A DNA stretch of 64,000 bases from Sipunculus nudus (Eukaryota; Annelida; Sipuncula; Golfingiida; Sipunculidae). The stretch spans positions 13,196,839 to 13,260,838 of the forward strand of contig CM049316.1 of NCBI GenBank assembly GCA_026874595.1. Direction: 5' to 3'. Each line of letters starts with the position of its first letter. Position 1 is the first letter of the stretch. A model generated the notes under the pieces. The model was not told the DNA's origin and searched no databases. It saw only the letters and a list, made by a program, of their open reading frames with translations. Made by a program: the position numbers and the translations under genes. Positions 2,576 through 60,692 of this stretch are shown here, piece by piece.

Positions 2576-2688
2576 ATCTACAGTTTGCCAGATTTTAAGC
2601 TTCATTTTCTGGTGAAGAACTTCCCAGTTGGTCAGAAGGTTTTGGTGGACAGTGTTCAAGTTCAGGAAAGCAGCAGCAGCAAAATGGG
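2576..2688 (+). CDS. CPSF1: CPSF1 visible exon 1
   Basis: Acceptor TTTGTAG, donor GGGTAAGTA. Encodes [20 protein letters not shown] and a serine-rich end. It ends in phase 2; the codon is completed by the next exon. The donor is the first unit of a 45-bp tandem array. Confidence 0.95.
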
Positions 2689-5600
2689 GTAAGTATATAA
2701 TAAATGTTATTGTTAAACATCTTTAATGATGGGGTCAGTATTTAATAAATGTTATTGTTACACAGCTTAAATGGTGGGGTCAGTATTTAATAAATGTACT
2801 TGTTACACAGCTTAAATGATGGCGTCAGTATTTAATAAATGTTATCGTAACACTTTTTTAATGATGGGGTCAGTATTAAATAAATGTTATCAGTACACAC
2901 CTTTAATGATTGGGTCAGTATTTAATAAATTTTATCGGTACACATCTTTAATGATAGGCTTGACTGCTATTTTGTATCATATGAAATTAAGTTACATATT
3001 AAAGTACCATTTGCCTGCTGTGTATGGTGTATGTTATCAGATTTTATGCCAGTATTGTGTTTATATGTACTCATATGTATTGCTTTATATATGATGAGTG
3101 TTCATACTGGACTTGTATGATTTCAGAAATTTAGTTCACTTTTCAGTTTTATTTATATGTATATACACACACACACACACACACACACTATTGTTTGATG
3201 GGATATTCTGCTACTGTTGTATTACTTTTATACTAACATTGTTCAGAGTGATAGTACCTCATTATTGGTAAAGGTACTTGAGAGAAAGTCCAAGATGTTC
3301 ATAGAGTATCTAGGTAAAGGCTCAGGTACTTTGGAAAGTAGAGGTACAGATAATAATACATTTATATGTAAGTCAACATTTCCAGTGTGATATATATACC
3401 TGGAGTACATTAATCCGGGTACAGATATTTCATGTACAGGTACTGCTACCAGGCAACTAATGATTTCCAGGTACAGGTACCGGTACAGTGAAATCTGTTT
3501 TAAAGACCACCTGTCTTATAAAACCACCTGTCTATTAAGACCACCCTCGGGTTAACTGAAAGCATTCACATTGGTTATAAATAACCTGTCTAATAATACC
3601 ACCTGTGAATTAAGACCACTTTTGAACAGTCCCATGGGTGGTCTCATAACACAGGTTTCACTGAACTTTGAATTGGATACCTAGGTACAAGTACAGGTAC
3701 CTGGCCCCAGCCCTGACATTGATGTTAATGTAAAACATATCTCAGCTTGTTTGGTATTCTCCTTTCAGGTTTGGGGACAAGTCAGAGGGTCTGCCAGTAA
3801 TCAAGGAGTTGTTGATGGTCGGACTTGGCAGCAGACAGACCCGTCCATTCCTTATGGTAAGATGCTTTTCTTGGAAACTTAGCCAACATTATGAAATATA
3901 CTAAAACTAAATACAACTAGAAATCTGCATTCTTTGGAATGCAAGCCTCCACCTTGTGGGGCCAAAGTGGGGGTCCCTACCGTGGGATGTTCCTAAAACA
4001 ATGTTTTTATTCACTATGTATCCCATACTTTCAGGTACATTCATGCATAAATGACTGTACATTTCTTCATGGGTCCATTCCCTAAATGCCCTGAAAATTT
4101 CACAAGATTCCTTTTATGATTGCTTGAGTAATAATGTGAACAAACACACGAATAGGGATGAACACAAACCCTCCTTGCAGAGGCAACTAAATACAATGAA
4201 AATGCTACAGTGACATCACATGTTGTAAGGTATACAGAATATAATCACTTCTCCCTTACCCCATGGCTCAACCATCCACTTTAAAACTTTGGCGAAAAGT
4301 GTGGACAGACAAAGTAAAAACGATAAAATCATAGAAATTTATCCTCATAAACATGAAGCGAACCATCATATGTGGTGGTTGGTCCCTTTATTATATGTGA
4401 CGTCAGTGATGAGATGGTGTCTGGTTACGTTACAGGCGAGAGCAAATGATAACCTGTTGATGTACGAAGCATTCCCATACCACACGGGAGGGGCAAACGA
4501 CAAACACCTGAAGCTGAGGTTCAAGAAGATCCCGCACGGACTGATTGTGAAGAGCAAGAAGCAGCGAGGGAAAAAGAAAATGGAGGAAAGTGACCAGAGT
4601 CCGCTCAATGACACCATCAAATGGCTAAGACCATTCACAGACATATCAGGATACGCCGGAGTGAGTAGACCCAATCAGATCCAGGGTTCCCAAGGCCTAA
4701 AAATGTCATGAATTTTGAAATTTTTAATTTCACTATGATTTTTCCGGAATTTTAAAAAATCATGAAAAAGTCAAGAGAATTTAAATTCCAGACTGTCTAA
4801 ATATTTCTCTCATCCATCTCTTACTATCAATAAATTAATTATGATTTAATGAATATATTAAAATATCCAAAATCATGGAGTGATGGTTGGGAATTTTTCT
4901 TTTAAATCGTGAAAAAGTTGTGAAAATGGAGGAATCATGAGATAATAGAAACAGGATTGGCATGATTTTAACAATAACAGTTTTTACCAGTTTTGGAACA
5001 TTTACCACATTCTCCTTTGGTTTGAACTGGGAACCTGGAGTTCATTTCTTAAAATCCTGAGCAGTGTCCCACCATGTGTGTCGATGTTTCAGATGGTTTA
5101 TATGGTCCATGTCTGGTTATTTTGCTGTTGTTTGTGTCACTTTGATTTGATGTTTAATGCTGACTTTTGTGAGCCCATACCGAAATCTGTCCCCTGTCTC
5201 CCTCTTCTTGGTGTACATGGGAATGTAACTTAAATGCTGGTTTTTTATTGTAGGTATTTTTATGTGGGCCGTACCCTCATTGGATATTCATGACCTACCG
5301 TGGTGTGCTGAGGATGCACCCCATGGGGATTGACGGAGCCGTCACGTGCTTTGCTTCCTTCAACAATGTCAACTGTCCTAAGGGCTTCCTGTATTTCAAC
5401 AGACAGGTGAGATGTAGCAGTAATTGAGTCCTTTTTGATGAATTATAATACAAACTTGGACATAAAATTCAGTTTTCCACAGTGTAGGCCATGTTGGAAA
5501 TACAGTAATACCACCTCAAAACAAAGACCACTTTTTCACGCCCCCTATTTGTGCACTTTCTAACAAACCTCACTTAGACAGCAACCTTGAAAATCCCATT

Positions 5601-11600: not shown

Positions 11601-14600
11601 CATGATATTCATTATAGACTTTTCTTCAAAGACTATAGCAGAGTTGAAATGAAACCTGTTGTAAACAGGAATGTGAAAAAGCCTAGGTATGAAAAATAGC
11701 ATAAGTAAATTAAGAACATAATCTTGATTCCGCTGGCCAGCAAAATAATTCAGTCGAAAGCTACACAAGGTCTTTCATTTATGGATGAATGTCAAGTTTT
11801 GAAAGTTTCATGCTGTGAAATTGTAAAATTGATAAATATTTTTATGGTGAATGCTTTTAAAATGTTACAGATCTACATACTGGATGTGATTGAGGTGGTT
11901 CCTGAGCCAGGTCAACCACTCACCAAGAATAAACTCAAGGTGACCCCATGTTGTCATAGTAACAATTTAAAACAATAACACATATAAGCTACCAGTATCA
12001 GTCAAAACTCACACATTCATTTTCAGCTCCGTGTTATTTATGCAGTCACAACTTTTCTCCAACTAATAAGAAAAGAACTGTATTCTCATGCACAAAATGG
12101 ATGTGTCAGACATATCCTGTTTCCAACATTTTCATCTTATCTTAAACATCTGTTATGTTTTTCACAGTCAGTAAAACTGTTCTATTGTTTGCCTAACAGA
12201 GTGTTGTTATTGTCTCTTCTGATTAAACCTGTTTTAATTTAAGACGGTACCTGCTAAAAAAGTGGATAAGAGCCTGCAGAAAAATGCAAATAAATGGGCA
12301 CTTCTCAGCTTTTATTTCATTAAGGTAGAACCAACATTGTCTTAATAAGATCCACTTTATAACACAATAAAAATCAGGAGCATTTATTGTGTTATGTCTG
12401 TTTTAACTATTTGTAGATTGATAAAGCTGAAACCTGTCTATTTATTTCAGGTTGTATATGACAAGGAGCAGAAGGGACCAGTCACTGCCCTAGATGCGGT
12501 CAATGGCTTCCTGGTCTCAGCTATTGGACAAAAGGTAAATCAGTGTGTCTAGTAATTTTTGTTAATATATCTGTATAGTATGTTTCTGCACTGTTTTTAT
12601 GAATTAAGAATTACATGTGTATTGATCACTGGAAAATTTAGATGCTTGTCCTGGAAATATCGGAAACATGGAATATCTGATTCCTAGACTCCTAGAGCCC
12701 AAAAGCACACACCTGAAATACCCACTTACACATACCTTTTAATTTCCCTATCGACATGTTGAGTTTTCTGCTTTCTCATTTTTTCAGATTCACATTTTAA
12801 AATGTTTTGCCCTGCCCTTTCAGATTTACATTTACATTGTACTCTCTTTTAATATTTATATTATGAGACTCTTTGTACTCTCCTTTCATATTTACATTTT
12901 GAGACATTTTGTACTCTCATATTTACATTATGAGACTTTTTTGTACTCTACTTTCAGATTAACATTTTGAGGAGACATTTTGTACTCCTCTTTAATATTT
13001 ACATTTTGAGACATTGTACTCTCCTTTAATATTTAAATTATGAGACTCTTTGTACTCTCCTTTCAAATTTACATTTTGAGGAGACATTTTGTACTATTCT
13101 TTCATATTTACATTTTGAGACATTGTACTCTCCTTTAATATTTATATTATGAGACTCTTTGTACTCTCCTTTCAAATTTACATTTTTAGACATTTTGCAC
13201 TCTCCCTTCATATTTTCATTTTTAGACATTTTGCACTCTCCTTTCAGATCAGCATTTCAAGATGTTCTGTCCTCTCCTTTCAGATTTACATTTGGACACT
13301 GAAGGACGATGACCTGAGTGGGGTGGCATTCATCGACACACAGATCTACATCTGTTCTCTGGCGGTCATTAAGAACATGATCCTGGTGGGTGACTTGTTG
13401 AAGAGCGTGTCACTGCTGAGGTACCAGCCAGAAATGAAGGTCCTGTCACTAGTCAGCCGGGTGAGTTACTCCAAGGTTTATCCAGGGTTCACCATGTGGT
13501 CTTGTAATGTGCATGTACCTGAAAGTTTTGTATGCATCTATAAACCCCTTAGATTTCATGTCCTGCAAAAAGTGGTAAATTTCAGCATGTTTGATATATA
13601 TTGCACTAAAAGCTTATTTTGTCCTTGATAAACACCCGCATGTATAGCAGTAAATGCTTAATTATTGGGGATCTGCTTGAAAAATGGTTCCCTATGGTGA
13701 TCACTTTGTCCGTCAGTTTTTAGAAACTTGCAGGTTCAGGACCTGTACAGTCCCAAACCTCTAGTTGATGCTATACTAATGGACTCGTGAAACACCTTTA
13801 CAAACCCCATTCCTTGATTTGTATAGAAGTGTCACATGGTATTTTTGCCTACTTTGGTAAACACTTGGGTGCCAACTCTGATGTCCCTGCCCATTGTCAC
13901 ATTAATTTAAAAAAAAAAAACACATTTTTGCTGGTCTGTGACATAATAACTACATGTTGAGTATATTTTTTTTCTCTCTCTCTTTTCAGGATGTTAAGCC
14001 TCTGGAAGTCTATGCTACAGAGTTTATGGTAGACAATGCTCAGCTCAACTTCCTAGGTCAGTATCTGTTTACATTTGTATAAGTGTATGAACAAATCGGA
14101 CTCCGGACACATTGTTTCAGTTTGCACAGGGGCATGTATGGTTTGTTAGTTTCCCACCAGATGGCATCCCAGTGAACTGTGGTTCTCTTTATGATACCAT
14201 TTCTTAAAATGTGCAAGTACCTTTAACTGTAATACTCAGACATAAAATAACTGTGTTGTAGGTTTGTTTGTAAGATGGTGATAATAAATTAAATCAGAGT
14301 GTTTGAAATGAATAAAAAATACTAAAAATGAAAGTAAGAAATAATAAGTAAACATACATATTACCCCACCTTGCAAATATTATGTTCATTTGAAATTTGC
14401 CTGGTGTTTGTAACTGTAAAAAAACAAGAAGGTGCCCTTTATGTTAAGATATTGCTATCCTGGATTTTATCTTGTACATTAAGTGAGTATTGCAGTAACA
14501 CTGTAGCAGCTTAGATGGAATGTCATTGTAGAGTGACTCCATACATCAGCCATTTCTAGATATTCCGTTTAGAAATCTATGAGGAAAGCTTCAGTAAAAT

Positions 14601-17600
14601 CACTGAAATTTTCTTATATTGTGTGGACTATATTACTATGAGCATTATTAATAAAACACATTTTCTGTATCAGATTCCTCTGTCCATCTCCTAAAAATAA
14701 AACAATATTTCTTACTTTATATTTGATGTTTGTTCTACTTACTTGAATTTAATATTTCAGTAAGTGACAGAGAAAAGAATCTTATTGTATACTGCTACCA
14801 GCCTGAAGGTGAGCTGTGTTCTTATTTATATTAATCTACACAAATCATGTGATATTAAAAAACAAACCAGCAGGATTTGAAATATTAAACAACATACTTT
14901 GAAATACAGCATAGGTTTTGCAAGGCAAAAATAAAATGGAGAGTTGGTCACAGTTCAGAACTATTTATCTTACTGTGCATGAACTACAAATCACTTTCAC
15001 CTTAATTTTTTGGCATGCATTGTGTAATTAAACAGTGATCATACTTTATTGTTCATATATAGAGAAATAGTGGTGTCCTTCAATGGCTTGCATGAAATCA
15101 AATAAGGTACATAGATGAATTAATATTCCCAGCAAAATTAACTTGAATAACCTTGTGACATTATTGTGCTGTGGATTTAACACCACTGATGAGAACTGAT
15201 TATTGTAAAGGTAAAGGTATCATGTTTATAATCTTGATATCACCAACAATGTCAGTCTCATCCCACTTCCCCTTTCTGGTGTTTAGGGCCTTTTCATTCC
15301 TTTAGCTTTTCTCGGCTCCCTTGGGAGCATACAACCCATTCAGCCTAAGAATGTGCTAAGGGTTATACATTACATATTTTGTCTTGTGTTCATGCATGAC
15401 ACCTTTGTGGTTAAGACTTTGGCCAGGTGTCTTAGCATGGAAGGCTGTCTGATTGGGGCTTGAACCCACAACCTTGGGGTCACAAGTCCAGGGCCCTAAC
15501 CATTAAGTGACCACACTCCTGTTGTAAGTTGTCCTGTTCAGACAAAAATAGCTCGTATCTTGTTAGCAGAACAAAAATTTCCCCAGAGATGTTTGGTCCA
15601 AAGAGTTTCTACCATATGTGGTCATTTTTCAGTTCGTGAGAGTTACGGAGGTCAGCGTTTGATTAGGAAGGCCGACATTAACATCGGCGTTCATGTCAAT
15701 ACGTTCTTCAGGATCATGTGCAAGAGAATGGATCCATCCACGGGCAAACGGGCCGTCGGGGCTATAGAAAGGAGACATGTCACATATTATGGTGAGTAGA
15801 GCTGCAAAGAATAGGAAAATTTGGATTCAAGGTCTCAATAGGTATTACCAGACTTGGAGTAAGGTCCTCGTGATAATCTGTATTTATATTGAAAATATTA
15901 CAAAATGGGGATTGTAAGGTCCTTTTCTGTGTAATTACCCATTTGCTGGTTGCATAAAAGAATATATAATAACATATGGCTTAGCAATTTGTAATGCATT
16001 TGAATGTGCTGTGACACTTTAATGTGAGGAATACTTGTACTGGATAGAATACTTGTATTCGTAAGAATTCTTGTAACGGTTAGAATACTTGTCTTGGTTA
16101 GAATACTTGTCTTGGTTAGAATACTTGTCTTGGTTAGAATACTTGTCTTGGTTAGATTCAACTGAGATTTACAGTGACAGTTATATCTCTACAAATAACT
16201 ATGTAAATATCTCAAAATACAGGCCTACATAAGGATTCTAGTTTTATTTTGGATTTTAGTACTTTGTTAGAATTACTCTTTCTGGAGTTCTTGTTCTTCT
16301 TTCTATCCTGATAGCGAGTCATGTAGTATCTCAAGAATTCTATAGAAAGTTTGGTTTGGGATGTCAGTTTTATAGTTTTGAAGATTTATTCAATCAGTTT
16401 GTTTCCATTTACAGTGTTCAAAAGATGCAGCTTGTTGTTGTGCAAAAAAGTCTTACAGTAACACTGCTATGTTGTATAAATCTAATGATGTCATGTTAGA
16501 CTGGAGGGTTTTTAAGTAAATTGAACATGTTTATTATTTGTGATCTTTGCAGCTTCTCTGGATGGCAGTCTGGGTTTCATCCTTCCAATCTCAGAAAAAG
16601 TCTACAGAAGATTGCTCATGTTACAAAACGCTCTCAACACGCACATACAGCACCTTGGAGGACTCAACCCCAAAGCCTACAGGTAATACAAGTTTGCTTG
16701 TTAACTCTTTTTAAACTAAAAAATCTGCATTCTAAGAAATGCAAGCCTCTGCCATGTTGGGGTCCCCTTTTGTGGGATGCTCCCAAACCTGTGTTTGCAT
16801 TCACTTCTTCAGCCCATATTCCCAGGTACATTCATGCATAAGAGACTCTACATTTGTGAATATTCCTTGATGATGTTCCTAAATCCAGAGCAGGTGCCTG
16901 ATCCTCACCAAAAATTTCATAGAATATTCATTGGCTCATTCCCTAAAGGCCCTAAAAATTTCATTGGATTCTCTTCATAATTGCTCGAGTTATGTTGTGA
17001 ACACACACACACACAAATGGGGATGAATGTATACCGCCCTGGTGGAGGCAGTAAAACCTCTAACCCAAGGTGCTACTTATTCGTAGGTGCAGAGATATGG
17101 GTAAGCCCAACTAAATTTTCTGTTTATTTTGTTTACTTTTACTTTAATGAACTCTGCAGGTTAATTTAAGTTTAATTTTAATTTATGTTTGTATTACCTT
17201 AAAGCTAAAAAAATTCTGTTTCCTAAAGTGCTCACCATGTAAAAAAATCTACAGAGTACCTACAGAACCCTGAGTAACCCTCAGAAGAGCATTCTTGATG
17301 ACTTGTTTAATTTCATCTTTCTTCTACAGACTTTTACAGAGTACCTACAGAACCCTGAGTAACCCACAAAAGAGCGTTCTTGATGATTCGGTTCTTTTCA
17401 TCTTTCTTCTACAGACTTCTACAGAGTACTTACAGAACCCTGAGTAACATTCAGAAAGGCATTCTTGTTTATTTGTTTATTATCATCTTTCTTCTACAGA
17501 CTACTACAGAGTACCTACAGAATCCTGAGTAACCCACATAAGAGCATTCTTGATGATTTTGTTCTTTTCATCTTTCTTCTACAGACTTCTACAGAGTACC

Positions 17601-18497
17601 TACAGAACCCTGAGTAACCCACAGAAGATCTTCTTGATGATTTGGTTCTTTTCATCTTTCTTCTACAGACTTCTACAGAGTACTTACAGAACCCTGAGTA
17701 ACATTCAGAAAGGCATTCTTGTTTATTTGTTTATTATCATCTTTCTTCTACAGACTACTACAGAGTACCTACAGAATCCTGAGTAACCCACATAAGAGCA
17801 TTCTTGATGATTTGGTTCTTTTCATCTTTCTTCTACAGACTTCTACAGAGTACCTACAGAACCCTGAGTAACCCTCAGAAGAGTGTCCTTGATGGCGACC
17901 TTCTGTGGAAGTACCTCCACCTGACCACCGTGGAGATGGTGGAGCTGGCAAAGAGGATTGGAACATCACAGGATCAGGTCAGCAGCCATCGTGTTTTAAT
18001 ATATTGTAACATGAAAAACATAATATATAACCATACTCATCACACATTTTAAAAAAGGTGTACTGGTTGTTAAAGATTAAATAACATTTTATCAGTTTTG
18101 ATGCTGAACATTTTACACTGATGCTATTCATTGTTAAAATATCTCATATGAGGTACTACTTTTCCCAGGTTATATCTTTTACTTTACATGTAAATTTGCG
18201 AGTATGGATATAAGTTATGACTATCAAATCCATGCAGCAATCTTTTATAAAGCGGGCCTTCCAATATCAGTGTATTTAGATGGAAAAAAGCTACTTATTC
18301 CATTTCCTAAATATGTTTTAATTAATATATGCTTGCCTGTTAAAGACAAATCTGGGCATATTTTGAGCTGACATAAGATATTGTGTTAAGTTGGCAAAAT
18401 ATCTAAGGTTCTGTTTTGTTTTCTCATTGTTATATTTCTTTCTTTGTAGTTGATTGATGATCTGATGGATATTGACAGAACCACAGCTCACTTCTAA
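2576..18497 (+). CDS. CPSF1: CPSF1 (CPSF160), 3' half, 17 exons, 5' end outside window
   Basis: Encodes the last 645 residues of the large subunit of the nuclear cleavage and polyadenylation specificity factor, the scaffold of the complex that recognises AAUAAA on pre-mRNA. Exons, all bounded by AG/GT: 2576-2688, 3769-3856, 4436-4660, 5254-5406, 6926-7042, 7918-8011, 8714-8798, 9576-9717, 11871-11939, 12451-12534, 13284-13460, 13990-14056, 14761-14808, 15633-15791, 16553-16682, 17839-17977, 18450-18497. The joined frame stays open to TAA at 18495. Peptides typical of animal CPSF160 appear in order: [70 protein letters not shown]-like [46 protein letters not shown] and the C-terminal TTAHF. 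This is the CPSF_A region (last beta-propeller plus C-terminal domain). No exon was found in 1-2575, so the first half lies upstream. Family assignment is from remembered homologues, not a search; identity is very secure. Confidence 0.97.
2682..2955 (+). repeat. 45-bp tandem array starting at a splice donor
   Basis: Six copies of a 45-bp unit. The unit begins with ATGGGGTMAGTAT, i.e. the donor of CPSF1 visible exon 1. GT dinucleotides fall at 2689, 2734, 2779, 2824, 2869 and 2914, exactly 45 apart. The true donor reads GGGTAAGTAT; the five copies read GGGTCAGTAT or GCGTCAGTAT. Confidence 0.93.
3165..3188. repeat. (AC)12 microsatellite
   Basis: Uninterrupted AC dinucleotides within a CPSF1 intron. 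Confidence 0.9.
3486..3663. mobile_element. pogo/Tigger-like MITE
   Basis: 178-bp element. The left end CAGTGAAATCTGTTTTAAAG is preceded by TA; the right end GGTTTCACTG is its inverted counterpart. GACCACCTGT motifs repeat inside. The right TA target copy is eroded. No coding capacity. Confidence 0.65.
3769..3856 (+). CDS. CPSF1: CPSF1 visible exon 2
   Basis: Acceptor CCTTTCAG, donor ATGGTAAGA. Encodes [20 protein letters not shown] and RQTRPFLM. Confidence 0.95.
3915..4195 (+). repeat. dispersed repeat family A, copy 1
   Basis: Shares ordered blocks with 16725-17050: CTGCATTCT, ATGCAAGCCTC, GTGGGATG, GGTACATTCATGCATAA, CATTCCCTAAA and CACACA near the end, then a GAGGCA stretch. It lies in a CPSF1 intron. 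A third, shorter copy is on the minus strand at 39838-39985. Confidence 0.75.
4436..4660 (+). CDS. CPSF1: CPSF1 visible exon 3
   Basis: Acceptor TTACAG, donor GGAGTGAGT. Encodes [12 protein letters not shown], a lysine-rich linker ([10 protein letters not shown]) and the end FTDISGYAG. The lysine-rich linker sits where vertebrate CPSF160 also has a basic, variable stretch. Confidence 0.95.
5254..5406 (+). CDS. CPSF1: CPSF1 visible exon 4
   Basis: Acceptor TTGTAG, donor CAGGTGAGA. Encodes [12 protein letters not shown] through [16 protein letters not shown], one of the most conserved stretches of the family. Confidence 0.96.
5503..5627. mobile_element. pogo/Tigger-like MITE (125 bp)
   Basis: Left end CAGTAATACCACCTCAAAAC follows TA; right end GTCGTAATTTTGAGGTTTCACTG is the imperfect inverse. 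Non-coding, in a CPSF1 intron. Confidence 0.65.
6926..7042 (+). CDS. CPSF1: CPSF1 visible exon 5
   Basis: Acceptor TTTTTGCAG, donor AAGGTAATA. Encodes [20 protein letters not shown] through MYHPESK. Confidence 0.96.
7918..8011 (+). CDS. CPSF1: CPSF1 visible exon 6
   Basis: Acceptor GTCTTTCAG, donor GAGGTAAGG. Encodes [20 protein letters not shown] and a short acidic stretch; phase 1 at the end. Confidence 0.92.
8714..8798 (+). CDS. CPSF1: CPSF1 visible exon 7
   Basis: Acceptor TTTACAG, donor AAGTAAGT. Encodes [20 protein letters not shown] and WEAIPST, matching the family's FSIQLISPVSWEAIP segment. Confidence 0.95.
9576..9717 (+). CDS. CPSF1: CPSF1 visible exon 8
   Basis: Acceptor AACCAG, donor AGGGTAAGT. 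Encodes [20 protein letters not shown] through the EEVTSRGR that ends this propeller strand. Confidence 0.95.
10707..11256. repeat. 275-bp tandem duplication
   Basis: Two direct copies, 10707-10981 and 10982-11256. Both start TTTACCAATATGCTG and share the stretch with GGTCTGGT, GTGACTATGTACTTGTAGGC and CAGCCAGTACACTGATCGTA. They are clearly diverged, so not recent. Lies in a CPSF1 intron. Confidence 0.85.
11871..11939 (+). CDS. CPSF1: CPSF1 visible exon 9
   Basis: Acceptor TGTTACAG, donor AAGGTGACC. A 23-codon exon encoding [20 protein letters not shown] and KLK, nearly invariant in animals. Confidence 0.96.
12451..12534 (+). CDS. CPSF1: CPSF1 visible exon 10
   Basis: Acceptor TATTTCAG, donor AAGGTAAAT. 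Encodes [20 protein letters not shown] and LVSAIGQK. Confidence 0.95.
12781..13283 (+). repeat. 30-40 bp tandem array ending in a true splice acceptor
   Basis: About a dozen degenerate copies of a unit CTCTCCTTTCAKATTTACATTT plus a GAGACATTTTGTA spacer. The last copy is the real acceptor of CPSF1 exon 11. CAG is kept at 12785, 12821, 12955 and 13245; other copies read CAT, AAT or CAA. The last step is 36 bp. Confidence 0.88.
13284..13460 (+). CDS. CPSF1: CPSF1 visible exon 11
   Basis: Acceptor CTCCTTTCAG, donor CGGGTGAGT. Encodes [20 protein letters not shown] through [17 protein letters not shown]. The acceptor is the last unit of a tandem array of acceptor-like copies. A decoy CAG 36 nt upstream would add 12 in-frame codons without a stop. 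Confidence 0.95.
13990..14056 (+). CDS. CPSF1: CPSF1 visible exon 12
   Basis: Acceptor CTCTTTTCAG, donor TAGGTCAGT. Encodes [20 protein letters not shown] and FL; phase 1 at the end. Confidence 0.95.
14761..14808 (+). CDS. CPSF1: CPSF1 visible exon 13 (48 nt)
   Basis: Acceptor AATATTTCAG, donor AAGGTGAGC. Encodes [16 protein letters not shown], equal to the family's VSDRDRNLMVY segment. Too short for most ORF scans. Confidence 0.93.
15195..15525 (-). mobile_element. tRNA-derived SINE
   Basis: On the minus strand the head has a pol III B box GTTCAAGCC (15465-15457) and an A-box-like TGGTCACTTAATGG (15514-15501). It is followed by an unrelated body and an AAAGGTAAAGGTA tail. It inserted antisense in a CPSF1 intron. 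No functional tRNA fold. Confidence 0.65.
15633..15791 (+). CDS. CPSF1: CPSF1 visible exon 14
   Basis: Acceptor ATTTTTCAG, donor ATGGTGAGT. Encodes [20 protein letters not shown] through HVTYY. Confidence 0.95.
16029..16155. repeat. 18-bp tandem array
   Basis: About seven copies of TTAGAATACTTGTCTTGG, the last three nearly perfect. Intronic. Confidence 0.88.
16553..16682 (+). CDS. CPSF1: CPSF1 visible exon 15
   Basis: Acceptor TCTTTGCAG, donor CAGGTAATA. Encodes [20 protein letters not shown] and [20 protein letters not shown]. Confidence 0.96.
16725..17050 (+). repeat. dispersed repeat family A, copy 2
   Basis: Ordered match to 3915-4195 (ATGCAAGCCTC, GTGGGATG, GGTACATTCATGCATAA, CATTCCCTAAA). 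Also contains (AC)7 and ends near a GGTGGAGGCA stretch. Confidence 0.75.
17245..17880 (+). repeat. 85-bp tandem array of acceptor plus exon start
   Basis: Eight copies (the first partial) of a unit made of a pyrimidine tract TTTCATCTTTCTTCTACAG plus the first ~45 nt of CPSF1 exon 16. Exon-start positions after CAG are 17330, 17415, 17500, 17585, 17669, 17754 and 17839. The steps are 85, 85, 85, 84, 85 and 85. Only the last is the true exon. Copies at 17415-17584 and 17669-17838 resemble each other most, suggesting a later three-unit duplication. Confidence 0.95.
17839..17977 (+). CDS. CPSF1: CPSF1 visible exon 16
   Basis: Acceptor TTCTTCTACAG, donor CAGGTCAGC. Encodes [20 protein letters not shown] through [10 protein letters not shown]. 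Chosen because only this copy of the 85-bp repeat continues into conserved CPSF160 sequence. Six upstream copies carry the same acceptor. Confidence 0.94.
18450..18497 (+). CDS. CPSF1: CPSF1 last coding exon
   Basis: Acceptor TTTGTAG. Encodes [15 protein letters not shown] then TAA at 18495-18497. This matches the conserved C-terminus of the family (DDLLETDRVTAHF in human). Confidence 0.97.
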   Translation: MIDDLMDIDRTTAHF

Positions 18498-22371: not shown

Positions 22372-25300
22372 TTTAGCTCAGCTGACTGAAAGTCATCTGA
22401 GCTATAGCGATCACTCTTTGTCCGTCGTCCGTCTGTCCGTCTGTCTGTCTGTCTGTCCGTCTGTCCGTTAACCAGGCACAAATCGTAACCGCTAGAACTG
22501 GAATCTTCTTACTTGACATCCTGGGAGGTCCATGAAAAATCTCCTTGGAAACCAGAAATTAGGTCTCTGTTACCCATATCCTTCGAGCTATGGGGCCCCA
22601 AAGTACCCCCCAGAAAAGTCCAAAATTTCATACAAAAACTTCAATATCTCATTAACTACTTGACTGATGGTCATGATTTTTGGCATACATATTGATCATG
22701 AGAGGTTCCATCATTTCCTGAAGACTGGTGGCGCCACCTGTATTTTTCGATTTTTTACGAATTTTTTTCTCTATTTTTGAGACCTTTAAAAATGTGAACA
22801 TCTGTTAACAAGGCACAAATCGTAATGACTGGACTTAGAATCTTCATTCTCGACACACTGAGAGACCTATGAAAAGTCTCCATGGAAGCCAGAAATTAGG
22901 TCTCTGTTACCCATATTCTTCGAGCTATGGGGCTCCAAACTACCCCCCAGAAAAGTAAAAAATTTCAAACAAAAACTTCAATATCTCATTAAATACTTGA
23001 CTGATGGTCATGATTTTTGTCATACATATTGATCATGAGATGTTCCATCACTTCCTGCAGACTGGTGGCGCCATCTGTATCGTTCAATTTTTTACGAATT
23101 TTTTTCTCTATTTTTGAGACCTTTCAAAATGTAAACATCTGTTAACATGGCACAAATCATAAAGACTGGACCTAGAATCTTCATTCTTGACACACTGAGA
23201 GACCTATGAAAAGTCTCCATGGAAACCAGAAATGAGGTCTCTGTTACCCATATTCTTCGAGCTATGGAGCCCCAAAGTACCCCCAAGAAAAGTAAAAAAT
23301 TTCATACAAAAACTTCAATATCTCATTAACTACTTGACTGATGGTCATGATTTGTGGCATAACTATTGATCATGAGATGTGTCATCACTTCCCGCAGACT
23401 GGTGGTGCCACCTTTATTCGATTTTTTACGATTTTTTCCTCTATTTTTGAGACCTTTAAGGATGCTGTCATCTGTTAGCATGGCACAAATCGTAACGACT
23501 GGACCTAGAATCTTCATTCTTGACACACTGAGAGGTCCATGAAAAATATCCTTGGAAACCAGAAATTAGGTCTCTGTTAACCATATCCTTCGAGCTATGG
23601 GGCCCCAAAGAACCCCCCCCCCCCCCCGAGTAGTCAAAAATTTCATACAAAAACTTCAATATCTCAATAACTACATCACTGATGGTCATGATTTTTGGCA
23701 TACATATTGATTATGAAATGTTCCATCAGTTCCTGCAGACTTGTGGCGCCACCTGTATTGTTTGATTTTTTACGATTTTTTCCTCTATTTTTGAGACCTT
23801 TAAGGATGCTGTCATCTGTTAACGTGGCACAAATCATAACGACTGGACCTAGAATCTTCATTCTCGACACACTGAGAGACCTATGAAAAGTCTCCATGGA
23901 AACCAAAATTAGGTCTCTGTTACCCATATTCTTCGAGCTATGGAGCCCTAAAGTACCCCAAGAAAAGTAAAAAAATTTCATACAAAAACTTCAATATCTC
24001 ATTAACTACTTGAATGATGGTCATGATTTGTGGCATAACTATTGATCATGAGATGTGTCATCTGTTCCTGCAGACTGGTGGCGCCACCTGTTCGATTTTT
24101 TACGATTTTTTCCTCTATTTTTGAGACCTTTAAGGATGCTGTCATCTGTTAGCATGGCACAAATAGTAACGACTGGACCTAGAATCTTCATTCTCAACAC
24201 ACTAGAAGACCTATGAAAAGTCTCCATGGAAACCAGAAATTAAGTCTCTGTTACCCATATCCTTCGAGCTATGGGGCCCCAAAGTACCCCCCCAGAGTAG
24301 TCAAAAATTTCATACAAAAACTTCAATATCTCAATAACTACATCACTGATGGTCATGATTTTTGGCATACATATTGATTATGAGATGTTCCATCAGTTCC
24401 TGCAGACTGGTGGCGCCACCTATGTTATCTATCAAGAGGGTACAAATTGCAACAACTGGACCTAGAAACTTCATTCTTGTCATGCAAGGAGGCCCATGAA
24501 GATTGCCTGTGGAAACTTGAAATTAGGTCTCTGTTACCCATATCCTTCAAGCTATAGGTCTCTGAAGTATCCCTCAGAATAATGGACAATTTGATACAAA
24601 AGCTGAAGTATCTGAACAACTAATACGGAGATCATCATGATTCTTTGCATGGATATTGACCATTAAGTGTTTTTAGCTCAGCTGACTGTAAGTCATCTGA
24701 AGTATCCCTCAGAATAATGGACAATTTGATACAAAAGCTCAAGTATCTAAACAACTATTGCAGTGATCACCATGATTCTTTGCATGGATATTGATCATGG
24801 AATGTGTCATCAGTTTCTGCAGTATGGTGGCGCCACCTGTATTTTTTTTTTATTTTTACGAATTTTTTTCTCTATTTTTGAGACCTCATAAGATGCGGTC
24901 ATCAGTTAACATGGCACAAATCGTAACAACTGGACCTAGAATCTTCTCTCTTGACATGCTGAGAGGCCCATGAAAAGTTTCCTTAAAAACTTGAAATTAG
25001 GTCTCTGTTACCCATAACCTCTGAGCTATGGGGCTCCGAAGTACCCCCCAGAATAATGGAAAATTTGATACAAAAGTTCAAGTGTCTGAACAATTATTAT
25101 ATTGATCACCATGATTCTTTGCATGGATATTGATCATGAAATGTTTCATCAGTTTCTGAATTCTGGTGGAGCCACCTGTATTTTTTCAATTTTTTTAGCT
25201 CAGCTGACTGAAAGTCATCTGAGCTGTAGAGATCACCTTTTGTCCGTCGTCCGTCCGGCCATCCAGGCGTCTGTCAGTTAACAGGGCACAAATTGTAACC

Positions 25301-26226
25301 GCTAGACCGGGAATCTTCTTACTTGAAATCCTGGGAGGTCTATGGAAATTCTCCTTTTAAACCTGAAATTAGGTCACTGTGACCTATATTCTTCGAGCTA
25401 TGGGGTTCTGAATTACCCCCCAGAATAATGCAAAATTTAATACAAAAGCTCAAGTATCTGAACAACTAATGCATTAATCACCATGATTCTTTGCATGGAT
25501 ATTGATCATGGAGTGTTTCATCAATTTCTGGAGATTGGTGGCGCCACCTATATTTTTTTTATTTTTTACGATTTTTTTCTCTACTTTTGTGATCTTTAAA
25601 CATTTGGTCATCTGTAAACAGGGCACAAATCATAATGACTGGACCTAGAATCTTCTGTCCTCACCTCCAGGGAAGCCCATAAAAGGTCTACATGGAAGCC
25701 TGAAATAAGGTCCCTGTTACCCATATCCTTTATGCTCTGGGGCTCCGAAGTACTCCCCAGAATAAAGATTTGGTCATCTGTTAACAGAGCACAAATTATA
25801 ATAACTTGACCTAGAATCTCCTTTCTTGATATGCTGGGAGGCCCCTGAAAAGTCTCCTTGTGCACCTGAAATTACATCTCTGTTACCCATATCCTTCATC
25901 CTATGCGGCTTTGAAATACCCCCCAGAATAAACATTTGGATTTGTTAACAGGGCACAAATCATAATAACTGGACCTAGAATTTTATTTTTTGACATGCTG
26001 GGAGACCCCTGAAAAGTCATCTTGTAAACCTTGAAAATAGGTGTCTGTTACCCATATCCTTCATGCTACAGAGCTCCATAGTACCCCAATGAATATTGGA
26101 TGATTTTATACAAAAGGTCAAGTTTGGAAAAAGTATTTCATTCAAATTTGACATTCAGATGATAAAATTACTTTTGTCAATGTCTTCCTGGTCAGCTGAG
26201 CGTCATGACCCCTGGGTCACTTGTTT
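22372..26226 (+). mobile_element. Helentron-like composite element with tandem core
   Basis: Starts with TTTAGCTCAGCTGACTGAAA. The imperfect hairpin CTCAGCTGAC/GTCATCTGAG (22377-22401) is followed by a (GTCY)n tract at 22419-22468. The core is made of 330-344 bp units starting GGCACAAATCG at 22475, 22812, 23149, 23482, 23826 and 24156, then shorter diverged units. A second head at 25195 suggests a nested or tandem copy. The end has AGCTGAGCGTCATGACCCCT near 26195-26215. Non-coding. Terminal hairpin, GTCY tract and tandem core are features I associate with non-autonomous Helentrons of the mini-me/pearl kind; the class is inferred. Confidence 0.7.
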
Positions 26227-52180: not shown

Positions 52181-55100
52181 CTGAAATGTGAGAAAACAGT
52201 CTACATTACCACATGCACACCAATCAAATCATTCCCAAAAGCAAAACAAATACATCATTAACAAAAGCAAACCAAATACATTGTTACCAAAAGCAAACCA
52301 AAGACAACATTGTTTTACAGGCATATGAAATCAAGAATTATTACATGCAAACAAAGACAAGTGACCCATGGGTCATGACGCTCAGCTGCCAAGCATGACC
52401 TGTGACATCATGGACTGAGATTCACAACTTCCAGTCAAATTTTGAAGAACCAATTTGCCAATTTGTTGAAAATTTTCTTTGACAACAGAAATATATATCA
52501 CCTATGTCTGGTTAAAACACAGTGAATTGATGGTCTGAGGAAAATGCATGATTGTTAAGCTATCAGGAACTATTCCAACAGCTTGCTTGAAACCTGTCAG
52601 TCTCAAAGGAACACCACAGAGGGAAAATATAAGATCAAAATATATAGCAAAAATCAAGGAAATACATGCAAGAATTATTGAGAAACAGGTGCTTCTGTAT
52701 GAATTTTTATTCAATACAAGCCAACTGTACTGCACTTTTATAAATGATGGTAATATTTATTCAGAAATATTTGACCCAATCCTTTACAAGATTACATAAA
52801 TATACATCCAACTGCATTCACTTTAACTGTTCTTGAGATAATATGATCAAAAGGAATTAAAAGATGGTTGCCTGGTGGCCATATTGGACTTCTGACAAGT
52901 CTGAAATCAGACAATAAACATTCTCTAAATCGGATCAAACATCAAAGAAAAATTACTGAAACTGCACTGAAGAAAGAATTTCTAAGGTGGCTAACTGGCA
53001 GACATTATGGATTTCTGACAAGTATGACATTTGATATCCCACATTCTCCAATAAGAGACCAAACTTGGGCAAATTATCCAGTAATGAACGCCCAAAATAA
53101 TTCAAAAGGCATGTTCAGGCCCTCATATCAGATTTATAGATATGCAATTGTAAAAAGTGTAAGTCCAATATTTTTTATTATCACTCTGCTTTTCAATGGG
53201 GTCAGCAGGGTAGGTAAACTGCCAAACCTGAAAGAAAAGAAATGCAGAAAGCATGACTAAGAGTCTTGAAATAAAACAAAAAGCCATCCTAAATCAAGGT
53301 ACACATCCACATATTATGAGAACAAACACTTGCTTTTATATGTGGTGATATATATGAAAATATTCAGATATCTAGGAAACTAAGTTTATTGCTAGGATTC
53401 CATAAAATAAACTGCAAAATGTTCCCATCATCTTATAAACCTTAATACTATACTCTCATTGTCTTAATGCCTGGCTGAAGCATTCTGACAACAGTGTTTT
53501 TTTTATGAAGTAACGAGGTACTTATCACTGCGCCTTATCACTTAATAGGCTGATACAAAAGGGAGTCATATGTCACCAGTGTCACTCACAATTACAGCCA
53601 CACAGGGAGATGTACCAGCTGGAGTGGGATGGTTATATATACAAGAAAAATAGAGATGGTCTATAAAATAAGTAATTGTGAACATCCCTGACCTATGACC
53701 TTGGCCTTTTGCCCATATATCAACTGGATTCTTTCTAAATGATGGGTAACTACTAACCACTTAAATCTGGTGTAATTACTTGGCAACCAATGGGTGAATA
53801 ACTTTGACCTGCAACCTTTAACCTGCTGACCCCAAAATCAATAAGTTATTTATTCAAGCAAAAAGACCCATAAATATGAAGTTTGAGTCAAACTGAGAGA
53901 TGCATAGATGTGGCATATGTGAAAGACTGAAGGTTTGGGTTGAACAGTTACACTTGAAATATGCTCACAAGCATTTAGAACAATTAAATATCGTGACCTT
54001 GACCTTTGACTTTTTGACCTCAACATCAATAGGCTTCTTCCCTTATTGGTAGGTAAGCCATATATGACAGATGGAAGGTACAGATTGAAAAGTTTGCCTG
54101 AAAATGACTCCACGCAAGAAGTGGGTGCTGTGAACTTGACCTTTGACCTCAAAATCAACAGGTCTTTTCCCCTGTTGGCAGAGAAGCGATATCAGTGCTG
54201 GAAGGTTTGGAATGAAAAGTCTAGCTTGAAATGTGTCCACAACCTTTTCAAAGAAGTGGATCCTGTGACCCTGACCTTTGACCTTGTGACCTCAAAATCT
54301 ATAGGATTCTTCTCCAACTTAGTAGGTGAGCTATATGTGAAAAATCAAAGAATTGGGATGAAAGGGTTGGCTTAAAATGCATCCACAGGCTTTACAAAGA
54401 AGAGGCTCCTGTGACCTTGACCTTTGGACCTAAAAAAAATTATGGTTCTTCCCCTGTTGGTAGGTGAGCTGTATGTGAAATATGGAAGGTTTGGGATGAA
54501 AATTTTGTCTCAAAGAGTTATTTCTGGGGGGTGCAAACACACCCCATAACTTCGAGAATATAAGTCGCAGTGACCTAATTTCAGGTTTGCAAGGAGATCT
54601 TTTTATAACCTCTAAGACTGCATAGGGTTCATGGCCCTAGCCCCTACGGTTACGATTTGTGCCCTGCTAACGGCCGGCCGGCCGGACGGACAGACGGAAG
54701 GACGACGGACAAAGACCCATCGCTATAGCCCAGCATGACTGAAGGTCAGCTGAGCTAAAAAATATTACCTGCATACTGAAGATAATTTTGTCAAAAGAAT
54801 ACCAGTAAAGTAAATTCAGCCTTATAGTTTAACACAATGTTTAGAACATAAAAAAAATAAAATAATGTCCATACAACAGCACTGAATCATGAATACAATA
54901 TGTTGTACCTTCATATTCTTAATTGAATATTTAATGAAACATTCTTATTATATATTTCTACTATCTATATTCATGACTGAATTGAAAGTTACCTTTTTCA
55001 GCAATTTCCTTGCCCCTTGTAATTCTCATTGACATCTCCCCAGCCATGTCACTTGTGGCATCATCAGTTTCAGCACTTTCTGGGACAACCAGTTCAGATA

Positions 55101-58100
55101 TGTCAATGAACTCAGGTTCCTTCTGATCCTCCGGGTCCTCTTTTGTAGCAGGTGCATCTTCAGGGGTCAGAGGAACTGCATCTGGTGCATCATCTGATTC
55201 TTCAGATGCATTAAAGGTTGAGCCATTGATCAGGGCGGTACTGAAATGGATTTTCACATGCTGCTGTAAAAGCTGTTGTTTGGCCACGCTGTAGTCACAA
55301 TATGGACATTGCAAACTGCTTCTGATCACATGGCATCTCAGGTGACTCAGCAGGTGGTCCCGTCGAACATTTGCATAAGGGCAGCGATCACAGCAATACA
55401 GTTTCTTCGGTTCCATATATTCATCAGAATTCTCATACAAATCCAAGTGATCATGGAGTAAATTTCGGTCATCCTCCTTCTCCAACACTGGATAGTTGGC
55501 TGCTGCTGCTACATTTGCCGGGATCTCTGGTAGCTGGACTAGGTTTGAGATGGACTGGTTGATAAGGAGGTTGTTATTTGGCGCTAGGTGGAGCTGCTTG
55601 TGCTGCAGCAGCAGATTATAGCTGGGAACGCTGTAGTCACAATACTCGCACTCATACTTCTGCTTGCTGCCGTGTAGCTGCATGTGTCGCTCAAACTGGG
55701 GTTGTTTGGCGGTTGCATAAGGACATCTTTCACAACACCATTTCTTGAACCTTATACTTTCCAGTCTGTGCTCCCCAGTTCTCTCATTGAATTTGATGTA
55801 GTAACTGGTGTTCCCTGGAATCGCAGACTGGTCTACTTTCACAGATGTTTGGGATTCTGCATTGCTGGAAGTGGCAGAGCTGCATTCACTCACTGGTTCA
55901 GCCTTGACATCAGCTTCACCTGGGGCTGTGGTATCACTTGAACTTGGCATTTCTACATCATTGACCACATCCTGGTAAGGATTGTAGTGTGATGAGTGCA
56001 CCTTGATGTGGTGAGACAGCAGGCCTTTGTTGGCCACGTGGTAGTCACAATACATACATTTGAAGACATCTTTGCCCTGTCTGGGACCATGCATTTTCTC
56101 ATGAAGCCTGACATTGGTTCCACGGATGTTTGTGTATGGACAAAAACGGCACTGGTGCAGTTTTTTGTACATCCCACTTGTGAGCACATTTCCGGTTTCA
56201 TTCAGGATACATCCATACATCATACTGGGATCACTGTTGTCTTTCATTGCTCTTTTAGGGGTCAGCAGGATCTTGTGCTGCTTCACAGATGCTGGAGACA
56301 CAGGCACACTTTTGATTTTGGCTGCTATTATGTGTTGTTTGATCCTGGCCATCTGTATGGCATCAATACTGGTATAACTGCTGTCAGAGATTTCGGTTTT
56401 AGTTGGGGAGGTTTCAACCATGGAGATTTTCTTTTCACCAGGAATCGAGTCACCTTGCTCATATTTCAATTTGTATTGTGGGTTGTGGACTTTCTTATGT
56501 TGAGTCAGCAACCTCCGCAAAGTAGTCCAGTATGGACACTCGTCACATTTGAATGGAGCATTTGCTTTGGGACGATGGAATTGCTTGTGGTACAAGTAAT
56601 CATTGAGGCATTTCCCTACATAGGGACACTTATCACAGAAGTATCTTGTTGTTTTCTTGGCAGTTTTGTCAGCAGTCTTCTTTTTCAGGACGACACTTTT
56701 CTTTACCGGAGATGAAGGAATAAGGTGACTGTATGCCCAAACACCTTTAGGATCATTCAAATGCATTCGCACATGCTGGTTGAGCAAGCGCCTAGCACAC
56801 ACGTAGTAGGGGCAGTACTTACAGGCAAACTTTTTCTCTGGGGTCTTCTTATGGTGCGCCACATGGTACTGTAATTTAGCAGCAGAAGCAGCCTGATATG
56901 GACAGAACTGACACTGTGTTTTCTTCAAATCACTCACTGTGTTATCTGCTGGGGATATAAAAGCTTCCACAGGGGGAGGAGTCTTAATTTCTGTCTTTAT
57001 CAGCTGTTCTCTTAAGGACTTTTTGGGGAACAATTTGACACATTTCTCAAATGGACATTCTGGATGTCTGATTTGTACATGTTTTTCAGCAGACTTTTGC
57101 CATTTAGCAGAAAATTTGCAGAGGAGACATTTGAACATGCCTTTGTACTGCATGGAATCATATTCTTTTTTGGGAATCTTCTTGACACTACAGGGAACAG
57201 ACGCACCATTCTCTTTAAGGAACAACTGATTGTAGTCTGTGCTGCCATGCTTTTCCCGAATGTGCCTTTGAGCAGCACTACGATGTATAGAAACAAAGTC
57301 ACACAGTCTGCATCCATATATATTTCGTTTTACGTGCTCTGTCTTAAAATGTTCAACAACTACTTCTTTAGTGACATCCCTGAATTCACATCTGCTGCAT
57401 TTCCATGATTTCTTAGTGAGTTTTCCTTTCTTTTTACCCCCTTTAGCATTAAAACCTTCTTTGGGTGGAGCCCTGTTTTTGATCCAGTCATAATGATAGT
57501 TGTCGAGTGTACTTACAGCTTCCTCATAATCTAAGATAATGACTTTAGCACCAGGCATGTCACTGTGTTTCCGTACAATATGGCGCGAGATATCCCCACT
57601 GTAGTCAGACCTATAAACACAGCCTGGACATTGATACCGTTTAATTCCATTCCATTTCCCTAATCCATCTTCACTTGTTGGTGAAGGCCCTGGTTTTGGG
57701 GCAATTGTTTGGGTTGGGCTTGGAGTTGAGAATGGTTTCCCAAAAGATGAACTTCTTCTCTTATATTCAGGCTTGCTATAAGTAGCCTTGGCCTCTTCAA
57801 GTGACAGTGTAATCACCGATCCCTTCTCATTGTGGATCATTCTGATGTGCTTCTGGATGTCATGCTTCCAGTTTGACCTCTTCCCACAGACGGTGCACTT
57901 GAAAGGTCTGAACCTTTCTTCAGGTGGCATCTTCTTATAATTTGGTGTTAGTTTCGGTGATGGTGTATCCTGGGTTTTAGCAGGAGTTGAGAAAGAAGAA
58001 GTACTTTTCCCTTTAGAAACAGGAGACCCTCCATGAATACCTTGCATAGCAAATACAGACCCTGGCATCACCTGGCTAGGAGTATCATTTGGTATGGCTG

Positions 58101-60669
58101 TAGGTTCAAAAGGGCTAACCTTTACAGTCCTATGGGCTGAGGAACTGATGTAATCTTCAATGGTAGCCCTTGCTTCACTTTCTGACATCAACTCTACATT
58201 CTTATAGTTATCCCCTGGGTGATCTTTCTTGATGTGTTTCCTTACATCCCATAACCAATTAGACCGTTTCCCACAATAACCACATTTATAAGGCTTCAGA
58301 TTATCATGAATGGTCATATGGCTCTTGAGCTTAGACTGGGCTTCACAAGTAAAGGGACATTTAGGGCAACAAACTACTTTCTTGCCAGTACTTGGGTCAT
58401 CTTTTACCAAGATGTTACTGTTCAACCCTGGTGATGTGATGGGGGATGGTGTCCCCTTTGTACTGTAGTTACTGTGGGATGCTGGTGATTGGTCCTGAAT
58501 CTTCAAATACTGATCCAGGGTAAGCTGCTCTTGGTGCTGCTGTTTGCGCAGTGTTTCTTCTGGGGCTTCTGGGATCACAACAACTGTGCCTGATTCAAAC
58601 ATACCTGCTTCATACACTGAAGCTCCATATAAAGTCTGTGGATCAGTAGTGTCCATTGCTTCCTCTGGTAAACAAGCATTCCCTTCATACCCAACCTCTC
58701 CCATTTCCACTTCCTCTGAAAGGCTCTGCTGTTTGATCTGCTGACTCTGCTGCTCTATTTCTGGCTTGTATGTCTGCTCTGTCATTTGTACCAAATTGTG
58801 TTCATTAACATGGTCCCCATGGTGCTTTGCGAGATGTCTCTTCATGTCCCCTTTCCATAAGGTTTTGTACTGGCAAAACATACAGTGAAATGGTTTCTCT
58901 CCTGTGTGAAGCATGGTGTGGCGATCTACCTCAGATTTACAAGTACCAATATATGGACAATACACACACCTCAGTTCAGGCTTATCTTGATCAAGTATCT
59001 GATTTCCATTCCCATCATTGATGGTTTCATACTTGTGAATTTGCTTAGTGCCTCGTCCTCCATTTGATCTTTGTCTAGTCAAGCCAAGGGCAGCCCTGTG
59101 TGATTTACGCATATGCATATTCAAGTCAAATTTGTATTTATAACTCTTGTTACAGTGCTGACAAAAGAAACGCCTGTCTACTTTGTGCACAAGCATGTGC
59201 CTTTTGAGGTCTGCTGGCCACTTTGCCATGTATGAACAGTGCTTACACTTCAAATTCTCATTCACAAAAAGTGCTTTTCGGACTGTGTTTTTCAATGACA
59301 GATCAAGCGGTTGCTCATCTGTTTTGCTGACAGGCTGTGAGTCTGCATCATCAACTTTGTTACTGATGATAAGCAACACTTTGCGGGGAAACTCCTTAAT
59401 TTTACGCCCATGTTTCCTTTTCAAATGACGACTGAGATCAGATGACCTGCGATACCTAGACTTGCATATAGGGCAAGCCCATGGCTGAAATTTTGGATGC
59501 AGTACAATGTGTGATCTCAAATGTGTTTCATTTGGCAGTGACAGTCCACAAATAGGACATAATATTTCAGGACAAGGTTCTTTGGATGATGATCTATTTG
59601 AACTGCTCGGCGGGGAACTGCCTGAGGGTGTCCCATGATTTGGAGTTGCATATCTCTGGGGGCTCATATCTATTGCTTCTTCTGTGTTGTTGTTGGTCAC
59701 ATCAGACAAGGTCATTGCAGTATCAATGCCAAACAGTTTTTCTGGGCTGGCAAGACTGTGATGTTCCTCCTGGTGATTTTCAATCTCCATGGATGTGTTG
59801 GCAGAGAAGCTGCACAGGTGACATTTCACAGCATAACTGTTGGTGTGATGCAAGTTATGTTCATCCATTTCATCCTTTAGGGAACAACTAAACCTGCATT
59901 CTGCACAAGTCAGTTGAGGGTTTTTGGCATGCTGTGCCCTGTGAATGGAAAATTCAATCTTGCGGTTGGTTTTGAAGCTACAGCGATCACAGTTGTACAC
60001 GCTGCCTTTCATGTGAACACTCTTCATGTGCTTTTGCACCATCCAGCGCTGGCTGTTCACAAAAGAACATAATTTACATTGATACTTTGTTTCAGAATGG
60101 TCTTTGTTCCATATCTCTTTAATGTACTTAGACTGAGTAGTAGTTTCTGTTTCAAAAGTACTGTTGTCCAGAGTACTGGTTACATTGCCTCTATTATCTG
60201 AATTGTGTGTGGGTATTTGAGCTTCATTTACAAAGTCATCTGGGGAATCATCAGCTTTTCTTATTGCTTCAAGATCAAATGGTGGCTTGAGCGGTTCAAG
60301 ATCTCTTATGACCAGAGGAGGTGCATCTCTGTGGATCATGGCACGGTGGCGGGGCATTTTGTGCTTATACCTCGTGGCATACTGGCACAAATCACATGGG
60401 TAGACAAGTATGTCTGCATCATGTAGCTGCACCTGGTGACACAGGAACAAACGAGACTTGTTGGTGTTGAATGAGCAGTGTTCACATTTGTAGTTCCTTT
60501 TCAACGGTATCCCTGCATTCAGTCCTAGCTTTGAGGGTTTCTTCTTTGGTGGCTTACACCTTTTGGTGTGCATCGTGAACAGGAAGTCATGCCTGGTGCT
60601 AAAGCCACAAACACAAGTCTGCAGTGATCCACTACTTTTCCCAAATGGTAACTTCACTTGAAAGGACAT
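52023..60669 (-). CDS. giant C2H2 zinc-finger protein, 2 coding exons, ~1,944 aa
   Basis: Coding exons 60669-54993 and 52180-52023 (minus). The donor AAAG|GTAAC at 54993 and the acceptor ATTTCAG before 52180 join in phase (G|AT = Asp), giving about 1,944 residues. There are 30 fingers in the large exon and one in the small exon (Cys1918, Cys1921, His1934, His1938). The first finger (Cys19, Cys21) is atypical. Residues 454-458 are PLDLS, the CtBP co-repressor motif. Fingers near 792, 921 and 1009 share a 20-residue acidic tail. The last ten fingers of the large exon form five pairs separated by linkers. Probably a nuclear DNA-binding regulator; finger text such as CPYxxxxxxxLxxH recalls REST or ZNF462 types, but I do not assign a name. 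The ATG at 60669 is the first in the exon, 23 nt after an acceptor (TTTACAG), so an upstream non-coding exon exists. Confidence 0.95.
52357..54762 (-). mobile_element. Helentron-like element filling the zinc-finger intron
   Basis: On the minus strand it starts TTTTTAGCTCAGCTGACCTT (hairpin with the mirrored CAGTCATGCTG), then a GTCC/GGCC-rich tract (54673-54711) and GCAGGGCACAAATCG. It ends near 52357 with AGCTGAGCGTCATGACCCAT. These match the two ends of the element at 22372-26226. The core here instead carries ~125-bp units with TGACCTTTGACCT boxes. It occupies 2.4 of the 2.8 kb of the intron. Confidence 0.7.
53990..54500. repeat. ~125-140 bp tandem units with DR1-type boxes
   Basis: Four units starting GTGACCTTGACCTTTGACCT or close variants (near 53993, 54130, 54265 and 54411), then CTCAAAATCAATAGG, a CTTCCCCTGTTGGTAGGTGA stretch and GATGAAAAG. 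Exact TGACCTTTGACCT (the inverse of AGGTCAAAGGTCA) is at 54137-54149 and 54272-54284; 54000-54012 differs by one base. Confidence 0.8.
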
Positions 60670-60692
60670 ATTTGCTGTCTCTCAGTCAAGCC
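54993..60692 (-). CDS. zinc-finger gene, large exon (acceptor at 60692, ATG at 60669)
   Basis: A 5.7-kb exon holding fingers 1-30. The acceptor TTTCTTTACAG precedes 60692. If the donor at 54993 is not used, translation runs 10 more codons (GNFQFSHEYR) to TAG at 54961, giving 1,902 residues without the last finger. Confidence 0.95.

Follow-up and report, generated by a model that had tools for sequence, protein, structure and literature searches.

Upstream of the penultimate coding exon of CPSF1, a gene that trims messenger RNAs, the end of the intron and the start of the exon are repeated in tandem. The locus raises two questions: which of the seven matching acceptors is joined to the preceding exon, and whether the other six serve the gene or are simply tolerated by it. 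The preliminary description of the window (the whole stretch of 64,000 nucleotides analysed here) had raised the prospect that the array makes a poison variant of CPSF1. We therefore consider the array itself, the products that its copies would give, and the occurrence of similar arrays at other exon boundaries of the same genome.

The CPSF1 gene and its 85-bp acceptor array

A total of 16 CPSF1 exons were located in the window, from position 2576 onward. The reading frame does not continue from 2688 to 4436, and at least one exon that we did not locate must therefore lie between these positions; from 4436 to the stop codon the spliced frame is open. The 3′ end of the gene, on the forward strand, comprises an upstream exon (16553-16682) with the donor CAG/GTAATA, the penultimate coding exon (17839-17977; 139 nt), and the last coding part with the stop codon (18450-18497). 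The penultimate coding exon has its authentic acceptor CAG ending at 17838 and its donor, CAG/GTCAGC, at 17978. Splicing the end of the first of these to the other two yields an 89-aa C-terminus that matches human CPSF1 1356-1443 (E 5.2e-27) and also Pfam CPSF_A. Thus, CPSF1 looks intact in the part seen. The array-bearing exon had been named exon 16 of CPSF1. Its assignment to CPSF1 stands, but such a number can do no more than count exons inside the window, where it is the 15th of the 16 located and the penultimate coding exon.

The array (17248-17894, forward strand) was delimited using TRF and alignment. TRF reports a period of 85 bp (7.6 copies, 86% matches) and, over the same interval, a second period of 254 bp (2.5 copies, 95%). 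The repeat is arranged head to tail with its unit across the exon-intron boundary, such that the intron end, the CAG and the exon start are present in the unit of all seven copies. The CAGs end, as the last intron bases, at 17329, 17414, 17499, 17584, 17668, 17753 and 17838. The corresponding first exon bases, namely 17330, 17415, 17500, 17585, 17669, 17754 and 17839, are the numbers given in the preliminary description, whose spacing of 85 bp with one step of 84 is confirmed. The regularity of this repeat is beyond chance. The first six copies are decoys (17313-17753). They were said to retain both the CAG and the pyrimidine tract, and this is borne out: AG is kept in 6/6, and from -17 to +3 the alignment is without a difference across all seven copies. 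It is also correct that the last copy alone, at 17839, continues into CPSF1 coding sequence, as seen from the human match and the open spliced frame described above. The coding exon thus follows directly from the outermost copy alone, with the frame kept.

The 85-nt units are 81-100% identical in pairwise comparison; two of them are identical, and most are separated from one another by several bases. At the left end lies a partial eighth copy (17249-17305), which is exon-like, has no pyrimidine tract before it and agrees with the real exon over +5 to +45. The two outer copies, i.e. this one and the real exon, therefore match each other over that stretch, while the inner copies share other variants. 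The inner copies are homogenised, as reflected in the 254-bp block duplication, and the edge copies are not. Among the best candidates scored, the array sequence was located at one place in the 1.43-Gb assembly.

Two further features of the window were recorded. A single 1906-aa open frame on the reverse strand (54961-60681) contains many C2H2 fingers, one of which matches a ZNF462 finger model. In addition, a 337-bp satellite of 5.8 copies (22467-24421) lies near an array with a similar-looking unit (25597-26068).

Predicted products of the upstream acceptors

If the donors that follow 16682 and 17977 are used, each of the six decoys leads to an in-frame TAA (at 17445, 17530, 17615, 17784, 17784 and 17869), so that the premature stop predicted in the preliminary description for the decoy at 17754 extends to every decoy. 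These stops precede the last coding junction by 109-533 nt. Under the 50-nt rule for premature stops, the decoy products are therefore expected to be decay substrates.

Such an arrangement is what a regulated poison device would need, in which controlled use of the decoys would generate decay-bound CPSF1 mRNA and thereby tune CPSF1. The exact conservation of -17 to +3 in all six decoys and the placement of all their stops speak for this reading. The distribution of differences among the copies is a further hint in its direction: variable columns make up 4/51 of the core (-17 to +34) and 17/34 of the linker. When scanned over window sizes, this clustering has a p of about 0.001 (3000 column shuffles), and the longest invariant run, taken alone, has a p of 0.04, with the reservation that the columns of an array are not independent events. 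Selection on the decoys could explain the low core variation, and so could conversion involving the real copy, which is under constraint.

The repeated part was also ranked for potential donors. Its best GT scores 0.4, compared to 6.9 for the donor at 17978; where the real exon is unique, two GTs reach 1.5 and 2.8. It should be noted that the matrix is rough and serves for ranking only; with it, the real CPSF1 donors at the exon ends 2688, 7042, 8011, 11939, 16682 and 17977 score 6.9 to 10.6. Micro-exons or new small introns within the units are thus unlikely, as no GT of the repeated part exceeds 0.4.

Boundary arrays elsewhere in CPSF1 and in other genes

Two more boundary arrays are found in CPSF1, both on the forward strand. 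The first, reported by TRF, is a donor array of six 45-bp units (2684-2955) at the end of the exon 2576-2688, where the real donor gtaagt at 2689 is followed by five decoys reading gtcagt; GT is kept in 5/5 of them. The second is another acceptor array, of units of about 36 bp (12786-13299; TRF, 12837-13292), which lies upstream of the exon starting at 13284. A loose match identifies 14 decoy copies in it, 4 with AG, 8 with AT and 2 with AA, and a tighter pattern identifies 11, of which 3 have AG and 8 have lost it. Since this array has lost AG in most of its decoy copies, the keeping of the acceptor signal is not a rule across arrays. The poison reading is not supported, and the loss of AG in 10/14 copies counts against a poison device in this gene.

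To see how far such arrays extend, we surveyed 60 exon loci with 1.5-kb flanks. The assembly has 75 myosin-head matches and 84 dynein matches, and the 30 best-scoring of each set were taken. TRF arrays lie within 10 nt of 5 of the 120 match edges (L114, L122, L131, L136 and L137), and on inspection three of these are true boundary duplications. In L114 (1690-2790, reverse complement), a myosin exon is followed by 28 donor copies, including the real one, at a spacing of about 36 bp. All 28 have GT (27/27 decoys) and 25 have exactly GACAG/GTCAGT. In L122 (1-1520), a dynein exon is preceded by 24 decoy acceptor copies within its 1.5-kb flank, with AG in 14/24. This upstream flank consists mostly of acceptor units of about 58 bp, which fall into an AG type and a GA type. 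In L131, the presumed donor of a dynein exon and the last ~30 nt before it are repeated, with two more near-perfect copies and further degenerate ones. The splice sites of L122 and L131 were placed from the match and the sequence. Acceptor copies extend upstream and donor copies downstream of their exon, and on either side it is the copy nearest the exon that is joined to conserved protein.

Arrays near an exon edge that are not boundary duplications were set aside: L136, L137 and L145 after inspection of the sequence, in the first two of which the array stops outside the splice site, and L112, which was not counted on the basis of the array listing alone. Separately, several matches to one myosin region occur in close spacing at C2:44849337-44854198 and are perhaps mutually exclusive exons.

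The recurrence of boundary arrays in two further places in CPSF1 and in 3 of 60 loci in other genes argues against a device specific to CPSF1, and the idea that the array is special to this gene is not supported. AG retention also varies between the acceptor arrays (6/6, 4/14 and 14/24). Furthermore, in none of the four other arrays tried do the columns of the splice dinucleotide stand out as conserved, a comparison that covered part of the copies in each (12 in L122, 16 in L114, 3 in the second acceptor array and 5 in the donor array). Taken together with the apparently normal splicing of comparable repeats in amphioxus (PMC3087553), these results make a regulated poison device improbable, despite the exact core and the decay-positioned stops.

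How often would arrays meet exon edges by location alone? In the survey flanks, arrays of period 10 or more occupy 12596 of 168000 bases (7.5%), some of them counted more than once where neighbouring loci have overlapping flanks. In the CPSF1 introns, such arrays occupy 2037 of 14069 bases (14.5%), and arrays touch 3 of about 31 CPSF1 boundaries. These values carry the imprecision of the underlying coordinates, in that some matches span stop codons, the flanks may contain other exons, and several CPSF1 exon ends are off by 1-4 nt. With 7.5% of the flanks covered and 5/120 edges touched, edges are not enriched over flanks; a duplication process targeted to boundaries is therefore not supported, and none is needed. 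It suffices that the genome is rich in repeats and that selection keeps the outermost copy, and no other, intact.

Origin of the arrays and comparison with known systems

We conclude that the 85-bp array is very probably a mirage, i.e. a minisatellite whose unit straddles an intron-exon boundary, which is passively tolerated by the gene and spliced at 17839. This reading is favoured because boundary arrays recur, twice more in CPSF1 and at 3 of 60 myosin and dynein loci, because the edge copies are unhomogenised as in an amphioxus mirage, and because splice signals are not uniformly kept and boundaries are not enriched for arrays. The array would have grown by local tandem duplication, through slippage or unequal exchange, followed by the duplication of a three-unit block. 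As the copies sit within the intron, the coding exon stays intact. The donor at 16683 would most likely be joined to the acceptor that adjoins the real exon, 17839, which is the one bounding the shortest exon with the donor at 17978, and any transcript spliced at one of the six upstream copies would be expected to reach its premature TAA and be removed by decay. The array would thus be tolerated rather than selected, in a genome that is rich in arrays, some of which land on splice boundaries.

Two observations sit less easily with this account. Pure neutrality does not predict that decoy donors keep GT (5/5 in CPSF1 and 27/27 in L114) or that the core of the 85-bp array is conserved. The sole use of 17839 may also be too simple. 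How one of several identical splice sites in competition is chosen has been studied mainly with artificial constructs. In one example, human reporter libraries with native tandem acceptors 2-59 nt apart, two consensus acceptors were used without an order preference (PMC6783452), and by analogy some use of the nearest decoy would be predicted here.

The array is very unlikely to reflect a misassembly or an allele that was collapsed or expanded. The pair of identical units and the 254-bp block repeated at 95% would fit such an artefact, and a draft genome contained one amphioxus mirage in aberrant assembly (PMC3087553). However, several bases separate most units from one another, the gene has kept its frame, and similar arrays occur at independent loci. 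It is equally unlikely that the array is on its way to a new intron or exon through the conversion of a unit into a small exon, a route documented in potato for RdRp (PMC4974935) and proposed for amphioxus globins (PMC3087553), since the units offer no good donor (0.4 against 6.9 at 17978 on the rough matrix) and the decoy reading frames hit stops.

If the tolerated-mirage reading applies more widely, boundary minisatellites may be pervasive in this genome, perhaps with at least one per long gene, and splicing would routinely ignore many perfect copies, with the site bounding the shortest exon winning among identical ones. We put this extension forward tentatively, as quite possible but still short of likely. 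Should it be true, the several exon edges at which acceptors or donors recur, in as many as 28 copies, would offer natural experiments, already in place, on proximity and exon definition. Boundary arrays would also supply material from which introns could be gained. What gives the finding its value is that such arrays recur: several genes carry many identical sites, with the exon-proximal one joined to conserved protein.

The genome itself is most likely that of a protostome. The bantam microRNA, which we take to mark protostomes, has one match in the assembly, at 73.2 bits against the Rfam gathering score of 61, in a search in which no control genome gave a match. For the molluscan haemocyanin domain, neither the assembly nor any control gave a match, so that this search does not discriminate. 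Among 11 COX1-family matches in the assembly, the two that were translated (C123 and C61) are both bacterial in type; the C123 product is a cbb3-type oxidase by reading of its translation, and the best relative of the C61 oxidase among the matches listed is 58% identical and comes from an Oligoflexia MAG. C60, C62, C66, C72, C74, C75 and C89 score like C61 in this search, and a further match on C5 covers 153 bases. Bacterial genomes are thus probably present in the assembly, the contigs with these oxidase genes measuring up to 3.3 Mb among those of known length.

Several described systems bear on these arrays. Human tandem repeats at exon-intron boundaries are a related case (PMC2812944), and PMC4974935 cites a 24-bp exonic segment that occurs in multiple repeats in fission yeasts. 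The intronic element In100 of caspase-2 likewise contains a non-productive acceptor (PMC2082412). It differs in being one 100-nt element, in which a decoy 3′ splice site is followed by PTB sites, and in being tied to regulated splicing. In intron gain by tandem duplication (potato RdRp; Rogers model), the duplicated segment contains a pyrimidine tract, an acceptor and an exon start, as here (PMC4974935), whereas in the present case no new intron is evident and the units have no good donor.

The closest likeness is to the mirages of amphioxus, minisatellite-like duplications of intron-exon boundaries in Adh3, the globins BflGb6 and BflGb9, and PGBD5, which RT-PCR suggested do not interfere with regular splicing (PMC3087553; PMC3902484). 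We found no report of many-copy boundary arrays outside lancelets in those parts of the literature that were searched. In both genomes, boundaries are duplicated in tandem on the acceptor or the donor side, many but not all copies keep AG or GT, and the inner copies are homogenised while the edge copies are not. The units of BflGb6 are 81-100% alike (PMC3087553), as are those of the 85-bp array. On these features of the sequence, the CPSF1 array fits the known mirage phenomenon and very probably belongs to it. It differs from the amphioxus examples in its most likely protostome setting, to which mirages, reported from lancelets, would then extend, in the presence of three arrays in one gene, and in the number of copies at a single boundary, which in L114 reaches 28 donors.
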